64,000 nucleotides of DNA, from contig ONHG01000010.1 of assembly GCA_900317585.1 (NCBI GenBank), forward strand, positions 1 through 64,000, in the 5' to 3' direction. The DNA comes from an uncultured Lachnospiraceae bacterium (GTDB lineage Bacteria; Bacillota; Clostridia; Lachnospirales; Lachnospiraceae). Shown in pieces: positions 41,561 to 61,012 of this stretch; position 1 is the stretch's first letter, and each line of letters opens with the position of its first letter. The notes beneath the pieces are model-generated. The model saw only the letters and a program-made list of their open reading frames with translations, did no database searches and was not told where the DNA came from. The position numbers were made by a program, and so were the translations under genes.

Positions 41561-41648
41561 ATGCAGATAAATGATGAATCAGGTCAGTGGATTCTACAGA
41601 CCGAAAGCATCAAGTGCAGCACGTAGTTTCAGTTTAAAGGAGAACAAC

Positions 41649-42545
41649 ATGAAAGGTATTATATTAGCGGGAGGTTCAGGCACACGTCTTTACCCACTCA
41701 CAATGGTAACATCAAAGCAGTTACTTCCAATTTATGACAAGCCAATGATCTACTATCCAATGTCAGTGCTTATGAATGCAGGCATCAGAGATATCCTGAT
41801 CATTTCAACACCACAGGATACACCAAGATTCAAGGAGCTCTTAGGAGACGGACATCAGTTTGGTGTCAACCTCACCTACGAGGTACAGCCAAGCCCGGAC
41901 GGACTGGCGCAGGCATTCGTTATCGGTGAGAAATTTATCGGTGATGACACCGTAGCCATGGTTCTCGGAGACAACATCTTCGCAGGACACGGACTCAACA
42001 AGAGACTAAGGGCAGCAGTTGAAAACGCAGAGAGCGGTAAGGGCGCCACAGTATTCGGATACTATGTAGACGATCCTGAGAGATTCGGTATCGTAGAGTT
42101 CGATAAAGAGGGAAAGGCTATTTCAATCGAGGAAAAGCCGGAGCATCCAAAGAGCAATTACTGTGTCACAGGTCTTTATTTCTACGACAACAACGTAGTA
42201 GAGTACGCAAAGAACCTTAAGCCATCAGCAAGAGGAGAGCTTGAGATAACAGACCTTAACAGAATCTATCTAGAGAAAAAGGCACTCAATGTAGAGCTTT
42301 TAGGACAGGGCTTTACATGGCTTGACACAGGAACACATGAGAGTCTTGTAGATGCCACAAACTTTGTCAAGACAGTCGAGACACATCAGCACCGCAAGAT
42401 AGCATGTCTTGAGGAAATCGCTTACTTAAACGGCTGGATTACAAAGGATGAAGTATTAAAGACATATGAGCTCGTAAAGAAGAACCAGTACGGACAGTAC
42501 TTAAAGGATGTACTTGATGGAAAATACCGCGAGCAACTGTACTAA
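41649..42545 (+). CDS. rmlA: glucose-1-phosphate thymidylyltransferase
   Basis: This is a 298-residue RmlA, which makes dTDP-glucose from dTTP and glucose-1-phosphate, the first step to dTDP-L-rhamnose. The nucleotidyltransferase signature [11 protein letters not shown] lies at residues 8-18. Further on are GLAQAF, VLGDNIF and [10 protein letters not shown]. The ATG at 41649 follows AAAGGAG; the frame is open upstream but has no site there. It is the first gene of the order rmlA-B-D-C. Confidence 0.96.
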
Positions 42546-42645
42546 TTATAGTAAAATCGACATTGCGTTAGTTAGCCAGTAGATTAATTTAATACAAATA
42601 ATTTAAATCTCGCTTGCAAAAAGCGGAAATCAGGAGGAAATCAAA

Positions 42646-43665
42646 ATGACAATTATCGTAACAGGTGGAGCAGGATTTATCGGAAGCAACTTCGTATTTC
42701 ACATGCTTAACAAATATCCGGATTACCGTATCGTATGCTTAGACTGTCTCACATATGCAGGAAATCTCTCAACACTTGAGCCTGTAATGGACAATCCAAA
42801 CTTCCGTTTCGTAAAGGAGAGCATCACAGACCGTGACGCTGTATACAAATTATTTGAGGAAGAGCATCCTGATATGGTTGTAAACTTCGCAGCAGAGTCA
42901 CACGTTGACCGTTCAATCGAAAACCCACAGGTATTCCTTGATACAAATATCATCGGAACATCAGTGCTTATGGACGCATGCCGCAAGTATGGTATTAAAA
43001 GATATCACCAGGTATCAACAGATGAGGTATACGGAGATCTGCCACTTGACCGCCCTGACCTTTTCTTCCATGAGGATACACCAATTCATACGTCAAGCCC
43101 ATATTCATCATCAAAGGCAGCAGCAGACTTACTCGTGCTTGCTTACCACCGCACATATGGACTTCCTGTAACAATCAGCCGTTGCTCAAACAACTACGGA
43201 CCATACCATTTCCCGGAGAAGCTTATCCCACTTATGATTGCAAATGCACTTAATGATAAGCCACTCCCGGTATACGGAACAGGCGAGAACGTGCGTGACT
43301 GGCTCTATGTAGAGGATCACTGCAAGGCAATCGACCTTATCATCCACAACGGACGTGTAGGAGAGGTTTACAACGTAGGTGGACACAATGAGAAGACAAA
43401 CCTTGAAATCGTAAAGATTATCTGCAAGGAGCTCAACAAGCCGGAGAGCCTTATCACATTCGTAGGAGACCGTAAGGGCCATGATATGCGTTACGCAATC
43501 GACCCAACAAAGATTCACAACGAGCTCGGATGGCTTCCTGAGACCAAGTTTGAGGACGGCATCAAGAAGACAATCAAGTGGTACCTCGACAACCGAGAGT
43601 GGTGGGAGACAATCATCAGCGGAGAGTACCAGAACTATTACGAGAAGATGTACGCGAATAGATAG
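42646..43665 (+). CDS. rmlB: dTDP-glucose 4,6-dehydratase
   Basis: This 339-residue extended short-chain dehydrogenase converts dTDP-glucose to dTDP-4-keto-6-deoxyglucose. The NAD fold is TGGAGFIGSNF (6-16); STDEVYGDL and the catalytic Tyr-x3-Lys in SPYSSSKAAAD follow, with RCSNNYGPYHFPEKL further on. AGGAGG precedes the start. It is separated from rmlA by 100 bases and from rmlD by an 80-base gap holding a long hairpin. Confidence 0.97.
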   Translation: MTIIVTGGAGFIGSNFVFHMLNKYPDYRIVCLDCLTYAGNLSTLEPVMDNPNFRFVKESITDRDAVYKLFEEEHPDMVVNFAAESHVDRSIENPQVFLDTNIIGTSVLMDACRKYGIKRYHQVSTDEVYGDLPLDRPDLFFHEDTPIHTSSPYSSSKAAADLLVLAYHRTYGLPVTISRCSNNYGPYHFPEKLIPLMIANALNDKPLPVYGTGENVRDWLYVEDHCKAIDLIIHNGRVGEVYNVGGHNEKTNLEIVKIICKELNKPESLITFVGDRKGHDMRYAIDPTKIHNELGWLPETKFEDGIKKTIKWYLDNREWWETIISGEYQNYYEKMYANR

Positions 43666-43726
43666 TTATTATCGTTTGTCTGGTGGTTTTGCGCATATAT
43701 GGTGATGTTAGTCACGATAATAATTA
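43663..43726 (+). other. long-range stem-loop between rmlB and rmlD
   Basis: The sequence tagttattatcgt (43663-43675, including the rmlB stop) pairs with acgataataatta (43714-43726) with one mismatch, leaving a 38-base loop. There is no T-run, so it is more likely an mRNA processing or stability element than a terminator. Confidence 0.4.
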
Positions 43727-43745
43727 AGCATAAAGGAGACCCTAA

Positions 43746-44687
43746 ATGAAAGTATTTGTTACAGGAGTTGCAGGTCAGCTCGGACACGACGTAATGAATG
43801 ACCTGGCAGCGCGTGGTTACGAAGGAATCGGAACAGATATAGCACCACAGTACAGCGGAGCAGATGATGGCACAGCAGTTACAACTATGCCATATGTCTC
43901 ACTTGACATCACAGACCGTGATGCAGTGGAAAAAACAATCACAGAGCTTAAGCCTGACGTGATAGTGCACTGTGCAGCATGGACAGCAGTAGATCTGGCA
44001 GAGGATGATGACAAAAAAGCAAAGGTGCATGCAATCAACGCAGACGGCACTCAGAATATCGCTGATGCCTGCAAGAAGATAGATGCCAAGATGGTATATA
44101 TCAGCACAGACTATGTATTTGACGGACAGGGCACCACACCATGGCAGCCTGACTGCAAGGACTATGCACCGCTCAACGTATATGGACAGACAAAGCTCGA
44201 CGGAGAGCTTGCAGTGGCAAATACCCTTGAGAAGTACTTTATCGTGCGTATAGCATGGGTATTTGGAGTGAATGGCAAGAACTTCATCAAGACAATGCTG
44301 AATGTCGGCAAGACACATGACAAGCTCACAGTAGTAAGTGACCAGATTGGTACACCGACATACACACTTGATCTTTCAAGATTGCTCGTAGATATGATAG
44401 AGACTGATAAATATGGTTACTATCACGCTACAAACGAGGGCGGATATATCAGCTGGTATGATTTCACAAAGGAAATCTTCAAGCAGGCAGTGGAGCTTGG
44501 TCATACAGAGTATTCTGAGGACAGACTCACAGTCGCACCTGTTACCACAGCAGAGTATGGTGTGTCAAAGGCAGCACGTCCGTTTAACAGCAGACTAGAC
44601 AAGAGCAAGCTCGTGGAGAATGGATTTAAGCCACTCCCTACATGGCAGGATGCGTTGCACAGATATCTGCAGGAGATTAACTTTTAG
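43746..44687 (+). CDS. rmlD: dTDP-4-dehydrorhamnose reductase
   Basis: This 313-residue NAD(P)H-dependent reductase makes dTDP-L-rhamnose in the last step. The N-terminal GVAGQLGHDVMNDL fold, STDYVFDG and the active-site YGQTKLDGE are visible. It is longer at the N-terminal part than some RmlD proteins because of an insert around residues 38-50. AAGGAG precedes the start. rmlC follows after 16 bases. Confidence 0.95.
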   Translation: MKVFVTGVAGQLGHDVMNDLAARGYEGIGTDIAPQYSGADDGTAVTTMPYVSLDITDRDAVEKTITELKPDVIVHCAAWTAVDLAEDDDKKAKVHAINADGTQNIADACKKIDAKMVYISTDYVFDGQGTTPWQPDCKDYAPLNVYGQTKLDGELAVANTLEKYFIVRIAWVFGVNGKNFIKTMLNVGKTHDKLTVVSDQIGTPTYTLDLSRLLVDMIETDKYGYYHATNEGGYISWYDFTKEIFKQAVELGHTEYSEDRLTVAPVTTAEYGVSKAARPFNSRLDKSKLVENGFKPLPTWQDALHRYLQEINF

Positions 44688-44703
44688 AAAGGATATAGAA
44701 ATC

Positions 44704-45312
44704 ATGGGACAGATTAAAGTACAGAAAAACGTAGGTGGAATCGAAGGACTTTGCATCATCGAGCCTACAGTACACGGAGACAACCGTGGATACTTTATGG
44801 AGACATACAATTCAAAGGACATGCAGGAGGCAGGCATTGACAGAGTATTCGTACAGGATAATCAGTCTTGCTCCACAAAGGGAGTGCTCCGCGGACTTCA
44901 TTTCCAGAAGGAATACCCACAGGCAAAGCTTGTGCGTGCGGTAAAGGGCTCAGTATTTGATGTGGCTGTAGACTTAAGAAGCGATTCAAAGACATACGGC
45001 AAGTGGTTCGGAGTAGAGCTAACAGAAGAGAACAAGAAGCAGTTCCTTATACCGGAGGGCTTTGCACACGGATTTTTAGTACTCTCAGATGTAGCAGAGT
45101 TCTGCTACAAGGTTACAGATTTCTGGCATCTTGGAGACGAGAGCGGTCTTGCATGGAATGATCCTGCAATCGGCATCGAGTGGCCACAGCTTGTCGGAGA
45201 GTATCCTGGAAGTGCTGACGGAAGCGGATACACACTTGAGGATGGCACACCAATCAATTTAAGTGATAAGGATCAGAAGTGGGAGACACTGGAGAATACA
45301 TTTAAGTTCTAG
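44704..45312 (+). CDS. rmlC: dTDP-4-dehydrorhamnose 3,5-epimerase
   Basis: This 202-residue cupin epimerase inverts C3 and C5 of the keto sugar. The family motifs DNRGYFMETYN, DNQSCSTKGVLRGLHFQ (with the catalytic histidine) and IPEGFAHGFLVLSD are present. The ATG at 44704 follows AAAGGA; a longer open frame upstream overlaps rmlD and is not needed. It closes the rml group and a hairpin follows. Confidence 0.96.
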   Translation: MGQIKVQKNVGGIEGLCIIEPTVHGDNRGYFMETYNSKDMQEAGIDRVFVQDNQSCSTKGVLRGLHFQKEYPQAKLVRAVKGSVFDVAVDLRSDSKTYGKWFGVELTEENKKQFLIPEGFAHGFLVLSDVAEFCYKVTDFWHLGDESGLAWNDPAIGIEWPQLVGEYPGSADGSGYTLEDGTPINLSDKDQKWETLENTFKF

Positions 45313-45450: not shown

Positions 45451-46668
45451 ATGGACAAAAATAAATCAATTTCAACACAGAAAAATAACAGATGGGATGT
45501 AGTATACTTTATATTGTATGGCATTGTGCTCGCAAAATGTGTATACGAGACTACCATGTTTTCGCAGCAGGTGCTGGTAGGAACCTTTAAGCTTTTTCTT
45601 GCAGCGATGGTTTTGTATACAGGAGCCAAGGTTCTTTTTTCTGGATACTACAGCAGAAAAGAGCAGCTTGCAATTGCCGTAGTTATTCTTATATTTGGAA
45701 TAGTAGGTTTACGGACCGGTTATTATGAGCTGCTACAGCCGGTACTGCTTATTGTCGGGGCAAAAAATGTGAGGTTTGACGATATATTAAAGGTATATAC
45801 GGCGGTAGTATCGGTCATGCTTATAGTGGCAGCTATAGCCAGTCAGACAGGTGTGATAGCGGATGTGATAGGCTATTCACCTAGAAATGCAGCGGCAGCC
45901 AGACATTCATACGGCATCATATATCCGACGGACTTTGCGGCACATATATTTTATCTGATATTGGCGGTGAGCTGCCTTGGTATATGGAAGAGAGTACAGG
46001 AAAACGAAAAATACAGATATCCGGCATGGCTCAGATGGCTTATCGTGATAGCAGCAGCTGTATTTATATATATAAAAGCAGGAGCATTTACAGGAACAGT
46101 CTGCCTGATGGGATTTTTGGTTTTGATGGGCCTGATTTATCTGCTTGAGAGGAAAAATCTGGCGCGCAGGGTGTGTGAGATATTTAAATATCTGCCGATA
46201 GTGTGGGCGAGTCTTTTTCTTGGACTCAGCTATTTTTATAGCGAGAGCAATGCTATAATGGTTAAAATAGATACTGTACTATCTCAAAGGCTGATGGTAA
46301 GCCACAAAGTTTGGAGTGAGTATAGCGTTAAGCCATTTGGACAGTTTATAGAGGAACAGGGCTGGGGAGGCATTGCAGACCCGACCGGGATAGACCCTGC
46401 AAAGTATTTCTTTATAGATGATATGTATCTTAGAATGCTGTTTGAGTATGGAATAATAGTGTTTGCTGTAGTGCTGATATTATTAATATTTATTGGTCAC
46501 AAGGCAATAGGAGCAAATCAATATGTGCTTTTTGCAGTAATAGTCATGATTGGCGTGCACTCTTTTATGGAGCATCATCTGCTGGAGGTGGCATATGATC
46601 CGTTCCTGCTTGTATTGTTTGCCGACATAGATACTGCTGATAAGGAAAAATCCGGGAGAAAGATATGA
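45451..46668 (+). CDS. Wzy-like polysaccharide polymerase, O-antigen ligase type
   Basis: This 405-residue protein has about ten membrane helices and one larger extracytoplasmic loop between the late helices (about 270-320, RLMVSHKVWSEYSVKPFGQ), the usual form of Wzy polymerases and WaaL-like ligases. These families are too divergent for a sure assignment. No ribosome binding site precedes the ATG. It overlaps the phosphoglycosyltransferase gene by four bases (ATGA), so the two are coupled. A Wzx flippase is not seen in the window. Confidence 0.75.
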   Translation: MDKNKSISTQKNNRWDVVYFILYGIVLAKCVYETTMFSQQVLVGTFKLFLAAMVLYTGAKVLFSGYYSRKEQLAIAVVILIFGIVGLRTGYYELLQPVLLIVGAKNVRFDDILKVYTAVVSVMLIVAAIASQTGVIADVIGYSPRNAAAARHSYGIIYPTDFAAHIFYLILAVSCLGIWKRVQENEKYRYPAWLRWLIVIAAAVFIYIKAGAFTGTVCLMGFLVLMGLIYLLERKNLARRVCEIFKYLPIVWASLFLGLSYFYSESNAIMVKIDTVLSQRLMVSHKVWSEYSVKPFGQFIEEQGWGGIADPTGIDPAKYFFIDDMYLRMLFEYGIIVFAVVLILLIFIGHKAIGANQYVLFAVIVMIGVHSFMEHHLLEVAYDPFLLVLFADIDTADKEKSGRKI

Positions 46669-48794
46669 ACTCAAAAAAATGGATAATCCAGTACCTTGAG
46701 GTACTTCTTGATATAATTGTGATGTTTACATCTTATCTGATTGCAAACTGGTACAAGTTCGGTTTCTTTAGAACGGGACTTATAAACCATACAGAGCACT
46801 ATCTTACGCTTTTTCTGGTAGAGCTCGTGGCATATGTGGTAGTACATTTTGTGGCATTTGCAGATGATAATCTGATAAATCGAAAGCTCTTTCCTGAAAT
46901 ATACAATGTCCTGAAGATGTATGTATATGTGGGTGCAATCACAGTCGGCTGTGTATATTTCACAAAAACAAGTGAATATTTCTCGAGAGGGCAGATGGGT
47001 ATGACCTTCATAATGAGTACTATATTCACGGTGATAGTCAGACAGCTGCTGAAAAGACTGGTGACAAAGGAATATCACCGCTCAGGGGCCAATGAGAAAA
47101 TCATGCTTGTCACAACCTCGGACCAGGTGGAGAGAGTGATAAAAAAGATAAAGACCACAAGAAACTGGGATTTTCGTATATCAAACATAGCAATACTTGA
47201 CTGTGATATGGTCGGTGAGATAGTAGACAAGATAGAGGTCGTCGCAACTGCCGATAACCTGCTTCAGGTGATATCAACAGCAGAGATAGACTCAGTGTTT
47301 GTACATCTGCCGGACGGCTATCCGTTTAAGCAGAGAGAGTTTGTTACAGTACTCAATGAGATGGGCAAGACAGTGCACCTGAATGTCAACGAGTATGAGG
47401 CCAAGGTCGGTGAGCACTATATGGATTTCCTTGGAAAATACGCAGTGGTCACATGGAAGAATAAGACATACCGTGTAAGGCATCTGCTTATTAAAAAACT
47501 GATGGACCTGCTGTTTGGCGTGGCAGGAAGCATACTTATAGTGCCTGTGTGGTTTGTTGCATTTATAGGCAAAATAGTCACAGGCGATCATGGACCGGTG
47601 CTCATATCGCTTGTCAGAGTCGGCAAAAACGGACGAAGATTTTATTACTATAAATTCCGCACCATGTATATGGATGCGAGGGATAGATATGACAAATGGA
47701 TACTCGATGGAAAGAAGGGGAAAGACCCGAGATTTACACCGGTTGGAAGAATGCTTGGGGCATTAAGGCTTGAAAATCTGCCATCAGCCTGGAATGTGCT
47801 GTGGGGAGATATGAGCATGGTGGGAAATCCTGCTCCATCACTGCCGGAGTTTATAGAATACTCTGCATTTCACAGAAAAAGTCTATCGGTAAAGCCCGGA
47901 ATCATAGGCTTCTGGCAGGTATACAGCAGGGAACACAGGCTGCTTACCGAGGAGGAGCAAAGCGAGTACGACCAGGAATATATACTGAACTGGACGGTGG
48001 GCCTTGATCTGAGGATTATCTTCAGGGCAGTATGTCCTCTGTGCAGGTCTGTGTCAAAGAGAGAGCTTGTCATGCCGGCACAGCTGGTTGATGAGATGAG
48101 ATGCTTGAGCGAGCTAGTGAAGGATAGAGAGCCTTTAAGCTATGACATCCAGGCATATCAGGCCACTGAAGACAGCGGAAAGCCGGTATACAGATTTATA
48201 AAGCGTCTGGTAGATATTGTTGCCTCACTGCTTGGACTTATAGTACTGTCACCGGTGTTTATCATACTCGCTGTGATAATCAGAATGAGTGATGGCGGCA
48301 GCGTGTTCTATGGGCACACAAGAGTCGGCTATAAGGGAAAGAAAATATCTGTATACAAGTTCAGGAGCATGAAGACGAACGCAGGTGATCTGGAAAAGAT
48401 ACTGACACCTGAACAGCTGGAGCAGTATGTAAAGGAATTCAAGATAGACAATGATCCTCGAATCACAAAAATAGGAGGCTTTCTGCGAAAGACCAGCCTT
48501 GATGAACTGCCACAGCTAATCAACATACTTAAGGGAGAGCTCTCCATAGTGGGACCGCGTCCAATCGTGGAGAAGGAAACCGAGATATACGGTAAGGACA
48601 TCGTAAAGCTTCTGAGCGTAAAGCCGGGGCTGACAGGCTACTGGCAGGCATATGCCAGAAACAATGCCACCTATGAGAGCGGAGAGCGCCAGAGGATGGA
48701 GATGTACTATGTGGAGCACTGCTCACTTTGGCTGGATATAAAGATACTTTTCAGAACCGTTTTTTCTGTAATCAGGGAGGATGGAGCACAATAA
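46665..48794 (+). CDS. tandem phosphoglycosyltransferase fusion
   Basis: This 709-residue protein carries two complete bacterial sugar-transferase domains. Residues 1-130 hold four membrane helices and 140-265 a CoA-binding-like soluble domain, as in WbaP/CpsE. The first transferase (about 275-480) has YKFRTM, but the catalytic Asp-Glu dyad is replaced: the usual S-L-D-E-L-P-Q reads RLENLPS (Glu370-Asn371). The second (about 515-705) has a full SLDELPQ (Asp613-Glu614), SIVGPRP and KPGLTGYWQ. The second domain is thus the likely active enzyme that puts the first sugar-phosphate on undecaprenyl phosphate. The first may be regulatory or structural. It overlaps the polymerase gene at its start. 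Confidence 0.9.
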   Translation: MNSKKWIIQYLEVLLDIIVMFTSYLIANWYKFGFFRTGLINHTEHYLTLFLVELVAYVVVHFVAFADDNLINRKLFPEIYNVLKMYVYVGAITVGCVYFTKTSEYFSRGQMGMTFIMSTIFTVIVRQLLKRLVTKEYHRSGANEKIMLVTTSDQVERVIKKIKTTRNWDFRISNIAILDCDMVGEIVDKIEVVATADNLLQVISTAEIDSVFVHLPDGYPFKQREFVTVLNEMGKTVHLNVNEYEAKVGEHYMDFLGKYAVVTWKNKTYRVRHLLIKKLMDLLFGVAGSILIVPVWFVAFIGKIVTGDHGPVLISLVRVGKNGRRFYYYKFRTMYMDARDRYDKWILDGKKGKDPRFTPVGRMLGALRLENLPSAWNVLWGDMSMVGNPAPSLPEFIEYSAFHRKSLSVKPGIIGFWQVYSREHRLLTEEEQSEYDQEYILNWTVGLDLRIIFRAVCPLCRSVSKRELVMPAQLVDEMRCLSELVKDREPLSYDIQAYQATEDSGKPVYRFIKRLVDIVASLLGLIVLSPVFIILAVIIRMSDGGSVFYGHTRVGYKGKKISVYKFRSMKTNAGDLEKILTPEQLEQYVKEFKIDNDPRITKIGGFLRKTSLDELPQLINILKGELSIVGPRPIVEKETEIYGKDIVKLLSVKPGLTGYWQAYARNNATYESGERQRMEMYYVEHCSLWLDIKILFRTVFSVIREDGAQ

Positions 48795-53405: not shown

Positions 53406-54548
53406 ATGAGACTGATTAATAAAATAGTTAATAAAATAACAAAAAGACAAGAAAAAAAATGGTATGCGGAAGTGAGTGAGTATGAAGGAACAGCAGATAT
53501 CCTTTTTGTCAATGGATGTGAATTAGAACATCCATTTAGATATAGAGTGTTGCATCAGAAGGAACAGCTTGAAAAAGTGGGGTATTCATGTCATTGGGTA
53601 TATATTAAGCAAATTAATCGGCTGAATGTTGAGAATATGGTAAAAAATCATAAAGTTATAATTATATATAGATGTCCATTTCAGAATGCTGTAAGAAAAT
53701 TGATGAATTATGCGTCAAAGTATAGAAGAAAAGTATTATTTGATATAGATGATTTAGTAATAGATACAGTTTATACAAATACAATACCTTATGTGCAAAA
53801 ATTATCAAATAGACAGAAACGGAAATATGATTCAAATGTGCTTAAAATGAAAAAAACAATGTTGATGACATATGGGGTTATTACTACAACACAGCAACTA
53901 CAAATAGAATTGTTGAAGTTTTCGAATAATGTGTTTATTAACAGAAATACAGCATCTGAGAAAATGGTTGAACTTTCAGAAAAAAGATTAAAACTGAAAG
54001 AAAATAATTTATCAGGATTAATTAGGATAGGATATTTTAGTGGCAGTATAACGCATAATGCAGATATAGAATTAATAGCTGAGGCTGTGCAATATATTAT
54101 GGAAAAACATAGAAATGTTATGTTGTGTGTTGTTGGAGAATTAAATTTGCCAGAAAAATTTAAAAGGTTTGAAGAAAGGATAGTAAGATATCCATTTGTT
54201 GATTGGAAGAAATTACCTGAATACATTGCTTCAGTGGATATAAATATATGTCCGCTAGAAAATACTATTTTTAATGCAGCAAAATCTGAAATTAAATGGA
54301 TAGAGGCTGCTTTAGTAAAAGTCCCTACGGTGGCAAGTAGAATAGGAGCATTTGAAGAAGTGATAGATGATGGAGTCACAGGTGTTCTATGCAGTTCGAT
54401 AGAAGAATGGAAAAATAAATTAGATGATTTGATCAGTTCAGAACAACTAAGAAAAAAAATTGCAAATAAGGCATATGATAAGGTGCATAGCACTTGTCTA
54501 ACAGATAACACAGGAATAAAATTAGGAAATTATCTTATGAAAATATGA
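53406..54548 (+). CDS. GT-B glycosyltransferase, single-module form
   Basis: This 380-residue protein is a clear paralogue of the N-terminal half of the 729-residue transferase at 58823. Both share ADILFVNGCxLxHPxRYRVxHQ, a VLFDIDDLVID segment, VFINRN, GYFSGSITH, a DWKKLPEYIASVDINICPLEN-type segment and KWIEAALVKVPTVAS. A shorter version of the same module is fused to the ABC ATPase at 56074. It has no membrane helix. The role is probably sugar transfer to the chain exported by the neighbouring ABC transporter. The family is GT4-like, with sequence far from well-studied members. Confidence 0.83.
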   Translation: MRLINKIVNKITKRQEKKWYAEVSEYEGTADILFVNGCELEHPFRYRVLHQKEQLEKVGYSCHWVYIKQINRLNVENMVKNHKVIIIYRCPFQNAVRKLMNYASKYRRKVLFDIDDLVIDTVYTNTIPYVQKLSNRQKRKYDSNVLKMKKTMLMTYGVITTTQQLQIELLKFSNNVFINRNTASEKMVELSEKRLKLKENNLSGLIRIGYFSGSITHNADIELIAEAVQYIMEKHRNVMLCVVGELNLPEKFKRFEERIVRYPFVDWKKLPEYIASVDINICPLENTIFNAAKSEIKWIEAALVKVPTVASRIGAFEEVIDDGVTGVLCSSIEEWKNKLDDLISSEQLRKKIANKAYDKVHSTCLTDNTGIKLGNYLMKI

Positions 54549-54637: not shown

Positions 54638-56059
54638 ATGAATAAAAAATATCTTAATTGGAAAAAATTAGCTCAGATTATGATAATAGTTGTTGTTATT
54701 GAGGCTTTATTTCTTCTGGGAGCGTTTCATCAGATTAATTACAAATCTAACAATCAAGCGCAGAGTGTTACGGATGAAAATGTCGGTGAAATCACAGATG
54801 GAGTAGATGTTGTACAAACATTCAAATACAATGGTGATTATATTAATAAAATATCAATTAAAGCTGGAACATATGAACGAAATAATTCTGGAACAGTTTC
54901 TATTACATTAACAGGTGATGGGAAAAAAATAGCTGATAATAAATTTGATGTTTCAAAGGTGGAGAATAACAAAGATATTGTATTAAAAGTTAATAAAAGG
55001 GTTGATGATAAATATAATAGATATAAGTTGACTATAAGTGGAAGTGAAAGTACAAAGAACGATTCTATTACGTTATATTCAAACTCAAAAGGTAATATTC
55101 ATGATGGAAAATTGTTTGTTAATAATAAGAGTATTGATGGCGAGTTAGAGATGACTGTATATGGCGATAATATAAGATATATCGGAAAATTCTGGCCAAT
55201 ATTCTTTGCTGTATTTATTTTGATTATTGCTACATTTTATTGTGTACAGAAAAAAAGAGAGAGTTTGGGTAAAAAAAGTATTCTTCATAATTTGTTTTAT
55301 AATCTTGAACGATATCATTTTTTGATTAAACAGCTTGTTTCTAGAGATTTTAAAACAAAGTATAAAAGATCTGTTTTAGGTTTTTTTTGGAGTTTCTTAA
55401 ATCCGTTGATGACAATGTTAGTGCAGTATGCGGTATTTTCGACTATTTTTAGAGCAAATATAGATAATTATCCAGTATATTTGTTGAGCGCAACAGTTTT
55501 ATTTAGTTTTTTCACTGAAGCAGTTGGTGGGGGATTAGGATCCATTGTATTCAATGCGCCATTGATTAAAAAAGTATATGTGCCAAAGTATATATATCCA
55601 GTCTCAAAAGTTTTATCTACAGCTATTAATTTATGTATTTCTCTTGTGCCATTGGCAGCTGTTATTTTGATTACTGGAGAATTACCTAATAAAGCATATA
55701 TATTGATTCCATTTGTTTTAGTATGTTTAATTGTATTTTGTATAGGAATGTCTTTGATTTTGTCATCTTTGATGGTTTTCTTTAGGGATGTGCAGTTTTT
55801 ATGGAGTATAATTAGTCTATTGTGGATGTATGCAACTCCTATGTTTTATCCTGAGGATATAATTCCTAAACAGTTTCATTTTGTTTTAACGTTGAATCCA
55901 ATGTACCATTATATATCTTTTTTTAGAACAATAGTTTTAGAGGGGACATCACCGCAGATGGTAGAGTATGTTTATTGTTTGGGATTCTCTGTTGTAATAT
56001 GTGGAATTGGAGCCGCAATATTTAATCATACCCAGAAAAAATTTGTTCTTTATCTATAA
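54638..56059 (+). CDS. ABC-2 polysaccharide export permease with N-terminal ectodomain
   Basis: This 473-residue permease is of the Wzm/TagG type. The transporter part (about 215-473) has six membrane helices and the family stretch FLIKQLVSRDFKTKYKRSVL with GFFWSFLNPLMTML. Unlike ordinary Wzm proteins of about 260 residues it carries an N-terminal addition: a first helix (about 11-31), a beta-rich extracytoplasmic domain (about 32-178, many Thr/Ser/Asn/Lys) and a second helix (about 182-203). The addition could bind the polymer or a wall protein outside the cell. The ATPase gene follows after 14 bases. Confidence 0.9.
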   Translation: MNKKYLNWKKLAQIMIIVVVIEALFLLGAFHQINYKSNNQAQSVTDENVGEITDGVDVVQTFKYNGDYINKISIKAGTYERNNSGTVSITLTGDGKKIADNKFDVSKVENNKDIVLKVNKRVDDKYNRYKLTISGSESTKNDSITLYSNSKGNIHDGKLFVNNKSIDGELEMTVYGDNIRYIGKFWPIFFAVFILIIATFYCVQKKRESLGKKSILHNLFYNLERYHFLIKQLVSRDFKTKYKRSVLGFFWSFLNPLMTMLVQYAVFSTIFRANIDNYPVYLLSATVLFSFFTEAVGGGLGSIVFNAPLIKKVYVPKYIYPVSKVLSTAINLCISLVPLAAVILITGELPNKAYILIPFVLVCLIVFCIGMSLILSSLMVFFRDVQFLWSIISLLWMYATPMFYPEDIIPKQFHFVLTLNPMYHYISFFRTIVLEGTSPQMVEYVYCLGFSVVICGIGAAIFNHTQKKFVLYL

Positions 56060-56073
56060 TTATGGAGGCCGAT

Positions 56074-58782
56074 ATGATAAAAGTAGAAAATGTATCTATG
56101 AAATTCAGAATGACAAATGATAATATGTCAAGCTTAAAAGAATTTGCCATAGCGGCATTGAAGCACAAAATCAATTATAATGATTTTTGGGTTTTTAAAA
56201 ACATAAATTTTGAAGTGAAAAAAGGTGAAGTCGTTGGAATTGTTGGAAGAAATGGTGCTGGTAAATCTACAATATTAAAGATTATATCTGGAATTCTTAC
56301 TCCGACCACAGGGAAGGTTACATTAAATGGAAATGTAGTTCCGATGTTGGAATTGGGATCGGGATTTGATCAAGACTTAACAGGTCGAGAAAATATATTT
56401 TTAAATGGATCAATTCTTGGTTATTCTGAGGAATTCTTGAAAGAAAAATATGACGAGATAGTAGAATTTTCGGAGTTGGGCGAGTTTATTGAATCTCCAA
56501 TTAGAAATTATTCTTCAGGAATGATGATGCGCTTGGCGTTTTCTATTGCCACGATTGTACAGCCGGAAATATTAATTGTTGATGAGATACTTGCGGTAGG
56601 AGATGAGGCTTTTCAGAAAAAAAGCAAAAGAAAAATGTTGGAGTTGATGGGAGGTGGAACTACAGTTCTGTTTGTATCACACAGTATTGATCAAATTAGA
56701 GAAATGTGTAACAGAGTTATATGGCTTGAAAAGGGAGAAGTTAAAATGGAAGGCGAAACAAAAATGGTTTGTGACGCCTATCAAAAATATATTAATCCGG
56801 TTGCTGATGATGGAGATAAGAAGCATAAGGCATCTGATGCACCTAAATTCTTTTCAGATGTTCTTTTTATATACGGTGAAGATGAAGAGGCATATGATTG
56901 GAGAGTAACAAATATTCGAGAACAATTACAGACGGGACAGATGAATTCCAATGAAGTATATTATGAGAATTTATCGCAGGATTTAGTGAAAAAATATCGT
57001 ATATTCATATTTGTGGGGTGTAGTGAGGAAGAAGGAATAATTGATTTCATTAAATTAGCAAAAAAACTTAATAAAACGGTAATAGTTGATATTAATAAAT
57101 GCAACAGTGATGTGATTTATTTTAAGCATCAAAATGAATTACTTGAGAATGTACGTGAATATTGTGATGGGGTTATGGTTTCTAATACGTATTTGCAAGA
57201 AACATATAATGCCATTGGATATACAACTATACTGAATGAATTGGTTACATCTGAGAGAATAGCTGAGTATGCAGCGTGGTCGATTTATGATAGAGATGTT
57301 CTTCCAAATATGAAAACAAAATATATGAGTGAAGATGAACTTATAAATTATAATAAAGCTTGTCTTGTAAGAAATAATAGATTATCTGATGGAATGCGTA
57401 TCGGATTTTTTGGAGATACTTTAATCAGCGATAGATTTAATCTAATAATAAATAATGTTGTTGATTTGATGAAAAATAATGGGACATTGAAATTATATGC
57501 GGAGGATTTAGAACAGAGGCTTCCGGCTGAATTAGAGAATTACAGAAGTCGTATAATATTTAAATCATTGACTGAAAAAGAGGATATATTAAGAGATTTT
57601 GCAGAAGTGGATATTGCTGTTTTTGCAACAAGAGATGCTATTGAAGAAAATGATATTATTATTAAAAATGAAATTTATGCTGGTTTGGTTAAGGTGCCAT
57701 ATTTAGCATATTCAGATAATGACTCATTAGAAAAAGATAATGTATTTAATGACTTACAGAGTTTTGAATCAGAATTACAGAGATTAATTGATAATAGAAA
57801 ACTATGTGAAGAAATTGGACAGAAATTATATGTTACTATAAGAAATGAAAAATGTGCCATATATAATTGTGACGAAATAGTAAAAGTTTTAAAAACTCTT
57901 ATTTCCGAAAATATGATTTTTTCAGTCGTAGGAGATTACTGGTCTCCAATAAATTATCAAGTGTTCGAGAAAGCAGCGCAGTTACAAATGTCTGGAAAAG
58001 ATGTAACTATTGTTTGTATGGGGAAAGAACAGAAGGATATCGTGGTTGATGATGTTTTATTACCTGTAGTTTCAAGAGAACTTATTTATTTTAATGCGGA
58101 TGTGGATTGTTCATTGGCAACAGATTGCGAAGGAATTCTTTGGTTACAGGATTATGCTCGAGCTAAAAAAATGTATTATTATGTTACCTGTAATGAGTTA
58201 TTGTGTTGTTCAGCTGGTGATAGAATGAAGATGATGGCTCAAAAGGCATTACATCCATACCGAAATATTGAATTTGTTACTACATCTAAAATAATAGAAG
58301 AATGGCTGAAATTAAATTATAATATTTCAGCAATGTATGTAGAGCCTTTTATAAAATTAGAAGATTATAGGAAAATTAAAAAAAATAATAATAGTAAGCA
58401 CAGAGTACTTATAGTTGGTGATTGTTTGAATAAAAATGATAATTTAGACTTCGCTTTTAATGTGGTAGATAGGCTTGATAAAAATAAATTTGAAGTGATT
58501 TTTTGGGCATTTGGAAGAGAACCATATAAATATTATAATTATGATAAATTATATTGGGAATTGAATAAATGTGATATAATAGAATTATATAATATGTGTG
58601 ATATTTTGTTAGTTACATGTAAATCTGGTAATACCTATGATTGTGACAAGATAATGGATTTATGTGGTGGAAAAATAGTTTGTTCAGACGCTTATAGTAG
58701 TACAGTTTATTCATCAAATTATATTGTATATGAAGATGGAAATATTGATTCAGCAGTAGAAGCGATAGAGCATACGTTATAA
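56074..58782 (+). CDS. Wzt-type ABC ATPase fused to glycosyltransferase-like domains
   Basis: From the ATG at 56074 (GGAGG at 56064-56068) this is a 902-residue protein. Residues 1-245 are a polysaccharide-export ABC ATPase: Walker A VGRNGAGKST (about 57-66), signature NYSSGMMMRLAFS (about 145-157), Walker B ILIVDEIL and switch VSHSID. Instead of a Wzt sugar-binding domain, the rest resembles the two-module transferase encoded at 58823. A first module starts at Asp262 (DVLFIYGEDEEAYDWRV) and a second near 614 (FSVVGDYWSPINYQVFEK). The equivalents of FDIDDLVID and of the GT4 E-x7-E region are poorly kept, so it may bind glycan and not transfer sugar. Confidence 0.88.
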   Translation: MIKVENVSMKFRMTNDNMSSLKEFAIAALKHKINYNDFWVFKNINFEVKKGEVVGIVGRNGAGKSTILKIISGILTPTTGKVTLNGNVVPMLELGSGFDQDLTGRENIFLNGSILGYSEEFLKEKYDEIVEFSELGEFIESPIRNYSSGMMMRLAFSIATIVQPEILIVDEILAVGDEAFQKKSKRKMLELMGGGTTVLFVSHSIDQIREMCNRVIWLEKGEVKMEGETKMVCDAYQKYINPVADDGDKKHKASDAPKFFSDVLFIYGEDEEAYDWRVTNIREQLQTGQMNSNEVYYENLSQDLVKKYRIFIFVGCSEEEGIIDFIKLAKKLNKTVIVDINKCNSDVIYFKHQNELLENVREYCDGVMVSNTYLQETYNAIGYTTILNELVTSERIAEYAAWSIYDRDVLPNMKTKYMSEDELINYNKACLVRNNRLSDGMRIGFFGDTLISDRFNLIINNVVDLMKNNGTLKLYAEDLEQRLPAELENYRSRIIFKSLTEKEDILRDFAEVDIAVFATRDAIEENDIIIKNEIYAGLVKVPYLAYSDNDSLEKDNVFNDLQSFESELQRLIDNRKLCEEIGQKLYVTIRNEKCAIYNCDEIVKVLKTLISENMIFSVVGDYWSPINYQVFEKAAQLQMSGKDVTIVCMGKEQKDIVVDDVLLPVVSRELIYFNADVDCSLATDCEGILWLQDYARAKKMYYYVTCNELLCCSAGDRMKMMAQKALHPYRNIEFVTTSKIIEEWLKLNYNISAMYVEPFIKLEDYRKIKKNNNSKHRVLIVGDCLNKNDNLDFAFNVVDRLDKNKFEVIFWAFGREPYKYYNYDKLYWELNKCDIIELYNMCDILLVTCKSGNTYDCDKIMDLCGGKIVCSDAYSSTVYSSNYIVYEDGNIDSAVEAIEHTL

Positions 58783-58822: not shown

Positions 58823-61012
58823 ATGAGTGAATTAAGAATGCTTGCACATAAAACAGTTAAAACATACAAAGAGGCTGGTGCAAAAAAGGTAGTTAAAAAG
58901 GCAACTGTTAAATTGCTTAGACATTTAGTAAATGGAGAAATGGTTGATGGCAGTCCTAATAAAACTTTTGCAGATGTTTTATTTATAAATGGATGCTATT
59001 TGCCACATCCATCAAGATATAGAGTAGCTCATCAAATGGAACAGTTGGAAGCTGCAGACATTTCTTCAAACACAATTTTTTATACAGATGTTACACCTGA
59101 GCTTGCTAGATTATACAGAGTGTTTGTTTTTTTTAGATGTCCATATACTGAGCAAGTTGGAAAATTAATAGAAAGAGCTAAAGAAGACAATAAGGTGGTT
59201 TTGTTTGACATAGACGATTTAGTAATAGATAGAGAGTATACTAAATCAATTCAGTATTTGAATAAGATGTCAGATCAGGAAAAACAGGAGTATTATAATG
59301 GGATTGATCTTACTCAAAAAACATTAAAAATGTGCGATGCTGCTATAACAACAACTGAGAGAATGGCGGAAGAACTTTCTAAATATGTTCCTCAGGTTTT
59401 CATTAATAGAAATGTGGCTTCTGATGAAATGTTAAAATTATCTTTAGATGCTCAAAAGAATAAAGAAAAGCAGGAAAATTCGTTAACGTTAGGATATTTT
59501 TCAGGAAGTATTACACATGATGCTGATTTTATGTTAATTCTTCCGGTTATAAAAAAATTGATGATTAAGTATTGCAACTTAAAATTAGCTCTTGTAGGCG
59601 AAATTACTGTTCCAAAAGAGCTTGAAGATGTTAAAGATAGAATTATATTTCATAAGTTTGGAGATTGGAAAGAATTACCTAGAAAAATAGCATCAGTTGA
59701 CATTAATCTAGCGCCTTTAGAAAATAGCATATTTAATGAAGCAAAGTCTGAAAATAAATGGGTAGAAGCTGCATTAGTAAGAGTTCCTACTGTAGCAAGT
59801 AAAGTTGGCGCTTTTGAACATATGATAGAAAATGGTGTCACAGGCATGCTGTGTGATAATATTCAAGAATGGGAAAATGCTCTTGAACGGTTAATAACTG
59901 ATAAACAATATAGAAAAAAAATAGCGGATAATGCTTTTGATTATTGTAAAGAAAATTGTACCTCTGTATATTCTGCTCAGAGACTAGGAAATTATATAAA
60001 ACAAATAATGAAGCCTAATATCGCGTTTATACTTCCCGTTCTCCAAATTAGTGGAGGAGCTTTGGTTATATTGAAACATTGTGTTATGCTTAAAGAGGCA
60101 GGATATGATGTTACAATTATAAATCAGGGAAATGAAGAGGATGAGTATGTATACAAAGATGGAGCTAGAATTAATGTGATTTCCTATAAGCAAAATCCTA
60201 TTATTGCGCATTTGGATAAGGCTGTTGCTACTTTATGGTCTACAGTTGATTTTTTTGATGTTTTTTCGAAGATTGGTAAAAGATATTATAATGTACAGAA
60301 TTTTGAAACCGACTTTTATGAGGCTGGTGACTATTTGAAAATAAAGGCAAATAGAACATATAATTCTTCGTTAAATATGAAATATATTACAATATCAAAA
60401 TGGTGCCAAAAATGGTTGTTAGAAAAATATGGTAAAGAATCACAATATGCTCCTAATGGATTGTATGTTGATCGTTTTTATCCTGTCGAAAGAAAATTCG
60501 ACAGAGATAAGATAAGAATTTTAGTTGAGGGAAATAGTGATGATTACTATAAGAATGTTGATGAAAGCTTTAAAATTATAGATTTGTTAGACAAAGATAA
60601 ATATGAAATATGGTTTATGTCATATCAGGGCAAGCCAAAAGAAAATTATAGAGTGGACAAATTTATGCATCAAGTTCCTTATGAGAAGGTTCCGAATGTA
60701 TATAGAGAATGCGATATTTTGCTTAAAAGTAGTTTGCTTGAAAGTTTTTCATATCCGCCACTTGAAATGATGGCAACAGGAGGGTTTGTTGTTGTTGCTC
60801 CTAATGATGGCAATGTAGAGTATCTTGAGGATGGCAAGAATTGTCTATTTTATAATCATGATAATTTGAATTCTGCAAAAGAGGCTATAGAAAAGATTGT
60901 TAATGATGCAGCGTTAAGGAGAACTTTAACTGAAAATGCGAGAAAAACTGCGGAACAGAGGGACTGGAAGAAAGTAAAAACGGATATATTATCCTTATAC
61001 GATATTGAATAG
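58823..61012 (+). CDS. two-module GT-B glycosyltransferase
   Basis: This 729-residue protein has two consecutive GT-B type units. Unit 1 (about 45-390) starts ADVLFINGCYLPHPSRYRVA and holds VVLFDIDDLVIDREY, GYFSGSITHDADFM and KWVEAALVRVPTVAS. Unit 2 (about 395-729) starts NIAFILPVLQISGGALVILK and holds SSLLESFSYPPLEMMATGG (E-x7-E signature), so it looks catalytic. Unit 1 is paralogous to the protein at 53406. The complete two-unit order is mirrored in the C-terminal part of the ABC ATPase fusion just upstream. It lies in the exporter operon. A bifunctional role, with two linkages of the repeat unit, is a reasonable inference. Confidence 0.85.
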   Translation: MSELRMLAHKTVKTYKEAGAKKVVKKATVKLLRHLVNGEMVDGSPNKTFADVLFINGCYLPHPSRYRVAHQMEQLEAADISSNTIFYTDVTPELARLYRVFVFFRCPYTEQVGKLIERAKEDNKVVLFDIDDLVIDREYTKSIQYLNKMSDQEKQEYYNGIDLTQKTLKMCDAAITTTERMAEELSKYVPQVFINRNVASDEMLKLSLDAQKNKEKQENSLTLGYFSGSITHDADFMLILPVIKKLMIKYCNLKLALVGEITVPKELEDVKDRIIFHKFGDWKELPRKIASVDINLAPLENSIFNEAKSENKWVEAALVRVPTVASKVGAFEHMIENGVTGMLCDNIQEWENALERLITDKQYRKKIADNAFDYCKENCTSVYSAQRLGNYIKQIMKPNIAFILPVLQISGGALVILKHCVMLKEAGYDVTIINQGNEEDEYVYKDGARINVISYKQNPIIAHLDKAVATLWSTVDFFDVFSKIGKRYYNVQNFETDFYEAGDYLKIKANRTYNSSLNMKYITISKWCQKWLLEKYGKESQYAPNGLYVDRFYPVERKFDRDKIRILVEGNSDDYYKNVDESFKIIDLLDKDKYEIWFMSYQGKPKENYRVDKFMHQVPYEKVPNVYRECDILLKSSLLESFSYPPLEMMATGGFVVVAPNDGNVEYLEDGKNCLFYNHDNLNSAKEAIEKIVNDAALRRTLTENARKTAEQRDWKKVKTDILSLYDIE

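Follow-up and report, generated by a model that had tools for sequence, protein, structure and literature searches.

A Wzm/Wzt-type exporter ATPase fused to a degraded, transferase-derived C-terminus in a Lachnospiraceae bacterium

Genes of the Locus

The window, by which we mean the whole stretch of 64,000 nucleotides analysed here, belongs to an uncultured Lachnospiraceae bacterium (genome G000) and contains genes for glycan synthesis and export; the Rml-type genes, the two GT genes and the two export genes described in this section lie on the forward strand. Genes of the RmlA, RmlB (an epimerase, assigned by context), RmlD and RmlC types (41571..45312) lie upstream of the glycosyltransferase (GT) and export genes and are the probable dTDP-rhamnose supply. 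At 46665-48794, a 709-aa protein contains two Bac_transf (sugar-phosphate transferase) stretches, the first reading by eye LRLENLPS and the second TSLDELPQ; on these letters, the first stretch is possibly a further degraded copy next to an intact one. A single-module GT of 380 aa (53406..54548) shares 47% identity with the first module of the two-module GT discussed next. That two-module GT (58823..61012, 729 aa) stands alone and keeps the motif SYPPLE, a WsaF-like possible rhamnose signature; its Pfam WsaF_C match falls below the cut-off (22.1 of 27 bits). Between these two GT genes are the two export genes. The first (54638..56059) encodes a Wzm-type permease that matches exporter permeases in the PDB, TarG among them, and has an ABC2_membrane domain at residues 230-432 (65.7 bits) and an N-terminal extension of about 210 residues. 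This extension (54638-55282) is modeled as a helix, a beta-sandwich and a helix ahead of the ABC2 core (pLDDT 67). It has no Foldseek match at E<=0.001, the best being a phage baseplate (1.7e-3), and carbohydrate-binding modules (CBM36 at 5e-3) and lectins are among its weak matches.

The second export gene (56062..58782) encodes the fused exporter ATPase that is the subject of this report, which consists of a nucleotide-binding domain (NBD), a linker and two GT-B modules. Translation from the ATG at 56062 gives 906 aa, and residues are numbered from there; the ATG at 56074, which has GGAGG closely 5′ and gives a product of 902 aa, is the likelier start, and the residue numbers of the first-pass annotation of this DNA are lower by 4. 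The NBD (residues 1-245, 56062..56796) is of the Wzt/TagH type. It carries GRNGAGKST, YSSGM, LIVDE and SHS, which we take to be the Walker A, signature, Walker B and H-loop motifs, matches ABC_tran at 79.8 bits (Pfam cut-off 25) and is close to solved exporter ATPase chains including TarH. Its best NCBIfam models are TagH and Wzt/RfbE, both below their full-length cut-offs. The NBD is followed by a linker (residues 246-262, 56797..56847) containing GDKKHKASDAP and then by module 1 (residues 263-615, 56848..57906) and module 2 (residues 616-906, 57907..58779), which are delimited as pseudo-GT modules by homology to GTs, by counts of invariant columns and by a fold model. By the features tested, the protein is a Wzm/Wzt-type exporter ATPase with an untypical C-terminal part.

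Homology and Predicted Fold of the C-Terminus

The 650-aa C-terminus, used as query P0006, reached no Pfam family at cut-off (the best was Glyco_trans_1_4 with 15.5 bits against a cut-off of 27), no NCBIfam model at E<=1 and no PHROGs model at E<=0.01. Wzt_C (PF14524), the jelly-roll domain of other Wzts, had no match in the protein at E<=1 and none in the whole G000 assembly (86.6% complete) at E<=0.001. Against the 729-aa GT, the C-terminus aligns end to end, with 177 of 671 columns identical (26%), 184 bits and an E-value of 5e-54, and its alignment with the single-module GT at 53406 is limited to module 1 (E 1e-12). A further GT4 gene from this locus (52322) served as a negative control and gave 17 bits with an E-value of 1.2; the distance between 5e-54 and 1.2 rules out chance or generic GT4 similarity. 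The first-pass annotation had claimed that an NBD of 245 residues is tied to about 650 transferase-derived residues that follow the order of the 729-residue transferase. Visible ATPase motifs, GT homology throughout and a 671-column alignment that includes the second module bear this out.

The C-terminus (window positions 56839-58779) was modeled with AlphaFold2 from five sequences, namely two fused C-termini, two stand-alone GTs and one single-module GT. Strands and helices alternate throughout the model, which has a mean pLDDT of 79.5 and a pTM of 0.74. Foldseek returned 153 PDB matches at E<=0.001, and the best 50 of the 153 are mostly GT4/GT-B enzymes, headed by the capsule synthesis multienzyme 8qoy (E 8.7e-10), PimA and MshA, with PimB', PglA, TarM and WaaG lower down. 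The match to the GT-B fold is approximate, with target-normalized TM-scores of 0.23-0.60 that are low to moderate partly because many of the targets consist of a single GT-B unit, against two in the query. As predicted, then, the C-terminus resembles GT4/GT-B enzymes and not a Wzt jelly roll. The structure prediction that had been proposed at first pass came out on the side of a GT-B fold and not of an ordinary Wzt carbohydrate-binding domain, and with PF14524 also failing to match, an ordinary jelly-roll Wzt can be ruled out.

Loss of Active-Site Residues

The first-pass annotation had also described the catalytic-looking segments as weakened, and a count of conserved positions agrees. Seventeen stand-alone GTs, including those of the window and of a second genome, G298, that has a similar fused protein, share 160 invariant columns, 82 in module 1 and 78 in module 2 (the GT of G126 was left out because its contig ends inside the gene). 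The window protein keeps 57 of the 160, made up of 27/82 in module 1 and 30/78 in module 2, and the fused protein of G298 keeps 71, of which 44 of the possible 78 are in module 2. For comparison, the 53406 GT, which took no part in choosing the columns, keeps 73/82 in module 1. Most of the DIDDL, YFSGS.TH and AKSENKW.EA blocks of module 1 are lost in both fused proteins, with a few more positions kept in G298; the DIDDL of stand-alone relatives reads DINKC in the window protein. Both also have Asp at K577, a lysine shared by all 17 stand-alone GTs. In module 2, alignment with the stand-alone GTs places the ESFSYPPLE site at 58627..58653 (forward strand), where the window protein reads GNTYDCDKI and has lost both EX7E glutamates and SYPP. 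The G298 protein reads ECFQTASLE at this site, so that SYPP is lost and both EX7E glutamates are kept. In the WsaF study (PMC3898925), the Tyr of PHPSYPPLE stacks on rhamnose, its final Glu supplies the second glutamate of EX7E, and the SYPP-type motif is termed a possible rhamnose signature. The window protein also lacks the last approximately 35 residues present in G298 and the stand-alone GTs, and matches none of the Pfam GT families at cut-off. Because EX7E, SYPP, K577 and most invariant columns are lost, the window protein is, from its sequence, very probably inactive as a GT. Inactivity appears less certain for module 2 of G298, which matches Pfam Glycos_transf_1 at 46.8 bits (cut-off 26.4).

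A Second Fused Protein and Constraint on the Frame

G298 belongs to the same genus as G000, and its fused protein, which measures 946 aa from the equivalent ATG and is 49% identical overall, repeats the layout of the window protein within the same gene order of Wzm, NBD-GT fusion and GT. Occurrence in a second genome rules out an assembly artifact. The G298 Wzm is 58% identical to that of the window, with 75% in the core and 36% in the N-terminal extension, a divergence of the extension similar to that of the fused GT modules; the stand-alone GT is 64% identical to the 58823 GT. Within the fused protein, identity is 86% for the NBD, 82% for residues 235-262, which span the linker, 39% for module 1 and 30% for module 2. 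Divergence focused in the fused modules and the Wzm extension suits parts that face a changing glycan and suits relaxed constraint equally well.

The reading frame of the fused C-terminus is under constraint and is not a pseudogene. When 643 aligned codons of the window and G298 proteins were compared (353 in module 1 and 290 in module 2), neither protein contained an internal stop, and pN was 0.41 and 0.48 for modules 1 and 2 against a pS of 0.82 and 0.78, at synonymous sites that are saturated. Second codon positions differ at 0.35-0.42 and third positions at 0.65.

Rarity of the Fusion and Wzt C-Termini in Relatives

A search for other NBD-GT fusions, suggested at first pass, found one more, that of G298, and the arrangement is rare among the genomes scanned. 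In samples of the family, order and class that overlap one another, P0006 had matches in 10 of 250 family genomes (its own counted) and in 2 of 62 genomes of the window's genus. Profile A1 matched 39 of 295 order genomes at 1e-3, 16 of 397 family genomes at 1e-15 and, among 291 class genomes, only the window's own. A contig collection yielded only the G298 contig with profile A1 and no match with the single sequence P0006. Among 129 loci, an NBD and a GT shared one frame only in G000 and G298. Thirteen wider stretches, fetched around weak order-wide matches in long frames, contained no frame with both an NBD and a profile match; nine of the long frames there matched profile A1 again, and the others did not at E 0.001. 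Literature searches, judged by titles and abstracts, turned up no Wzt-GT fusion, and an earlier description may exist, for instance in the Wzt survey of Mann, Kimber and Whitfield (2019).

The stand-alone form is more common and occurs here and there across the family. Apart from G000 itself and from G708 with its partial match, fourteen of 397 family genomes have a two-module GT that matches most of profile A1 in a frame of 665-773 aa, none of them fused to an NBD, and G515, from another family, has one in a 782-aa frame, also without NBD fusion. Near these GTs in the 14 family genomes, the Wzt measures 244-247 aa in six (G191, G005, G599, G652, G647 and G658) and 425-443 aa in six (G181, G098, G142, G118, G083 and G707); G126 and G681 have no Wzt within the stretch fetched around the GT. 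Wzt_C was confirmed in both long Wzts tested (G181 and G118), was not found in G599 and is present in a 439-aa frame on another contig of G298. Because the Wzt near the same GT is short in six genomes and 425-443 aa long in six, we read the Wzt C-terminus from these sequences as an exchangeable slot that holds nothing, a jelly roll, a sugar enzyme or a pseudo-transferase in related gut bacteria. The module-1-type GT is likewise mixed and matched across loci, as it is found near the C-terminus of 1129-1140-aa frames in relatives (L121:5690-9112, L122:8706-12095, L124:5499-8918 and L022:12671-16087, all on the minus strand).

Sugar enzymes attached to the same NBD type came from a search of 397 family genomes, 354 of which have an NBD match. 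Nine frames of at least 596 aa, with the window's own excluded, were inspected among the matches listed, and their partners are UDP-galactopyranose mutase (Glf) in four, a pyruvyl transferase-like protein in one and nucleotidyltransferase/kinase-like proteins in two. The four NBD-Glf fusions (L088:955-2892 (+), L089:839-2758 (-), L091:1401-3383 (+) and L093:1113-3086 (+)) match GLF at 265-285 bits (cut-off 26.3), and their Glf domains are apparently intact and 60-67% identical to the window's own Glf. In L096:1464-3239 (+), the NBD is fused to a polysaccharide pyruvyl transferase domain (111.5 bits). L090:1481-3865 (-) combines it with nucleotidyltransferase (32.2 bits) and APH (25.5 bits) domains, both above cut-off, and L092:1475-3778 (-) with a kinase-like APH region in which APH is below cut-off. 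L094:2240-4000 (-) and L095:2293-3999 (-), whose frames run off the edge of the stretch fetched, have the NBD last, behind a basic/membrane-like segment. L073, one of two frames whose ends were examined among those of 340-389 aa listed, has a short extension. Fusing this NBD type to sugar enzymes therefore recurs in the family, and the pseudo-transferase version is a further variant.

Origin of the Fusion

G599 shows the unfused arrangement, with Wzm, a Wzt of 247 aa, a two-module GT (769-aa frame) and a 61033-like gene in the same order as in the window and an NBD 75% identical to that of the window. Wzt and GT are separate genes in this genome, with the stop codon of the first overlapping the probable start of the second (TAATG). 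The GTs of G599 and G515 contain an insert, IY[DN]RD.LP (IYNRDKLP.. and IYDRDELP..), that is present in both fused proteins (IYDRDVLP.. and TYDRDILP..) and absent from the 58823 GT. The idea that the C-terminus is a copy of its neighbor was accordingly inaccurate, since the insert is absent from the 58823 GT and the C-terminus has diverged far more than that neighbor; a direct recent duplicate is unsupported. The insert points instead to a related GT lineage as the possible source of the fused part, and it is a lead and not proof because insert-bearing rows form one group in 5% of 200 bootstrap trees in a GT tree without the window protein. Branches of the fused proteins in the GT tree measure 5.34 and 1.53 changes per column, and because they are so long, the GT trees do not settle the attachment point of the fused clade. 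The NBD tree groups both fused proteins as one clade (support 100/95), next to which stand G599 and G016 (85/83, not firm). A single origin of the two fusions has support in each of the two trees that include both proteins, with a long-branch caveat for the GT tree. The genomes whose NBDs lie nearest in the NBD tree (G599, G016, G592, G166 and G019) have bare Wzts of 241-258 aa. Probably, then, the fused part was added to a bare Wzt and no jelly roll was displaced, and we infer that adjacent Wzt and GT genes fused in a G599-like locus in which a second GT was retained or acquired downstream.

What the Fused Part May Do

How synthesis and export are coupled is understood where a jelly roll reads the chain and, to our knowledge, much less so where there is none, and a transporter carrying a dead copy of a pathway transferase would offer a direct handle on it. 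The most economical reading, to which we give somewhat less than even credence, is that the pseudo-transferase C-terminus reads the glycan or hands it over to the exporter. Its more specific form, put forward tentatively, is that the acceptor cleft of a dead two-module GT serves as a chain-gripping, substrate-reading domain, an independent counterpart of the Wzt jelly roll. A short-type Wzt gene would have fused with the two-module GT gene downstream of it while the locus kept or gained another GT, and the fused copy would have lost donor-sugar catalysis and kept the cleft that binds the acceptor glycan. This cleft would then bind the lipid-linked chain, whether complete or still being extended, and deliver it to the Wzm channel, and the pseudoenzyme would take over the role that the jelly roll has in E. 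coli O9a-type systems. If this is true, a whole two-module GT was recruited as the substrate-reading domain of an exporter.

Several results favor such a reader. GT homology extends along the whole C-terminus with a clean negative control, the model has a GT-B/GT4 fold, active-site columns are lost in both fused proteins and kept in the 53406 GT, and the same architecture recurs in G298 in a constrained frame. Residues 235-262 are conserved while the modules are not, the G000 assembly has no Wzt_C, and the slot is exchangeable in relatives. The modules also diverge much faster than the NBD, the Wzm core and the neighboring GT, as a glycan-specific reader should. Fast divergence, however, is expected equally of a decaying passenger, and loss of the donor site says nothing of survival of the acceptor site, with most module-1 signature columns gone as well. 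The truncated end of the window protein and the jelly-roll frame that G298 encodes elsewhere also count against a reader. As the closest NBD relatives are bare Wzts, this lineage probably had no jelly roll to displace, and such exporters need not have a reader.

The strongest rival, which we consider unlikely but well worth weighing, is a docking platform: paired with the 58823 GT, the pseudo-GT would keep the polymerase at the exporter and so couple synthesis and export in space, without touching sugar itself. An intact-looking two-module GT lies directly downstream of both fused genes, enzymes are repeatedly tethered to this NBD type in the long frames described above, and the Wzt and GT genes of G599 overlap (TAATG). 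Against docking, a surface that binds a partner would be expected to stay conserved along with it, yet identity between the two species is 30-39% for the modules and 64% for the partner GT. Less probable again is an accidental fusion whose NBD functions by itself, with the C-terminus a decaying passenger that is only kept soluble. The long branches in the GT tree, the missing C-terminal end and the bare Wzts of 244-247 aa in six relatives with the same GT speak for this explanation. It accords poorly with 643 codons that contain no stop at saturated synonymous divergence and have second positions better kept than third, with the conserved linker region and with a folded model. Finally, it is very improbable that module 2, at least in G298, is still an enzyme that transfers a sugar, as a cap or a branch, at the exporter, as the capping role raised at first pass would have it: G298 module 2 does keep both EX7E glutamates, 44/78 columns and its Glycos_transf_1 match, but K577 has become Asp, SYPP is lost and the module-1 signature is mostly gone in both proteins, and the window protein lacks both glutamates and any Pfam GT family at cut-off.

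Comparison with Known Systems

Characterized Wzts with PF14524, such as those of E. coli O9a, K. pneumoniae O12 and A. aeolicus, share with the window protein the NBD class, the position of the extra domain and the pairing of Wzm and Wzt genes. According to two studies (PMC9445017 and PMC11231755), export is licensed by their jelly roll, which binds the capped end of the chain, and by analogy the extra part of the window protein may do the same chain-reading job. What differs is the part itself, a 650-residue double GT-B unit from a biosynthetic enzyme in place of a jelly roll. Short Wzt/TagH-type proteins (TarH, the RfbE type and the Wzts of G599, G191 and G005) have the same NBD type and, in G599, the same gene order, but they end at about 245 aa, where the window protein carries a fused pseudo-GT. 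Likeness to WsaF-like GT4 rhamnosyltransferases is seen in the 58823 GT, to which the fused part is homologous over its full length and whose module 2 SYPPLE resembles the PHPSYPPLE of WsaF; unlike these enzymes, the fused copy has lost the motifs and is joined to an ATPase. A parallel in form comes from the fusions of Glf and other sugar enzymes in the same family, which likewise join this NBD type to a C-terminal protein of a glycan pathway. In the NBD-Glf fusions, that domain looks intact, whereas in the window protein it is degraded.
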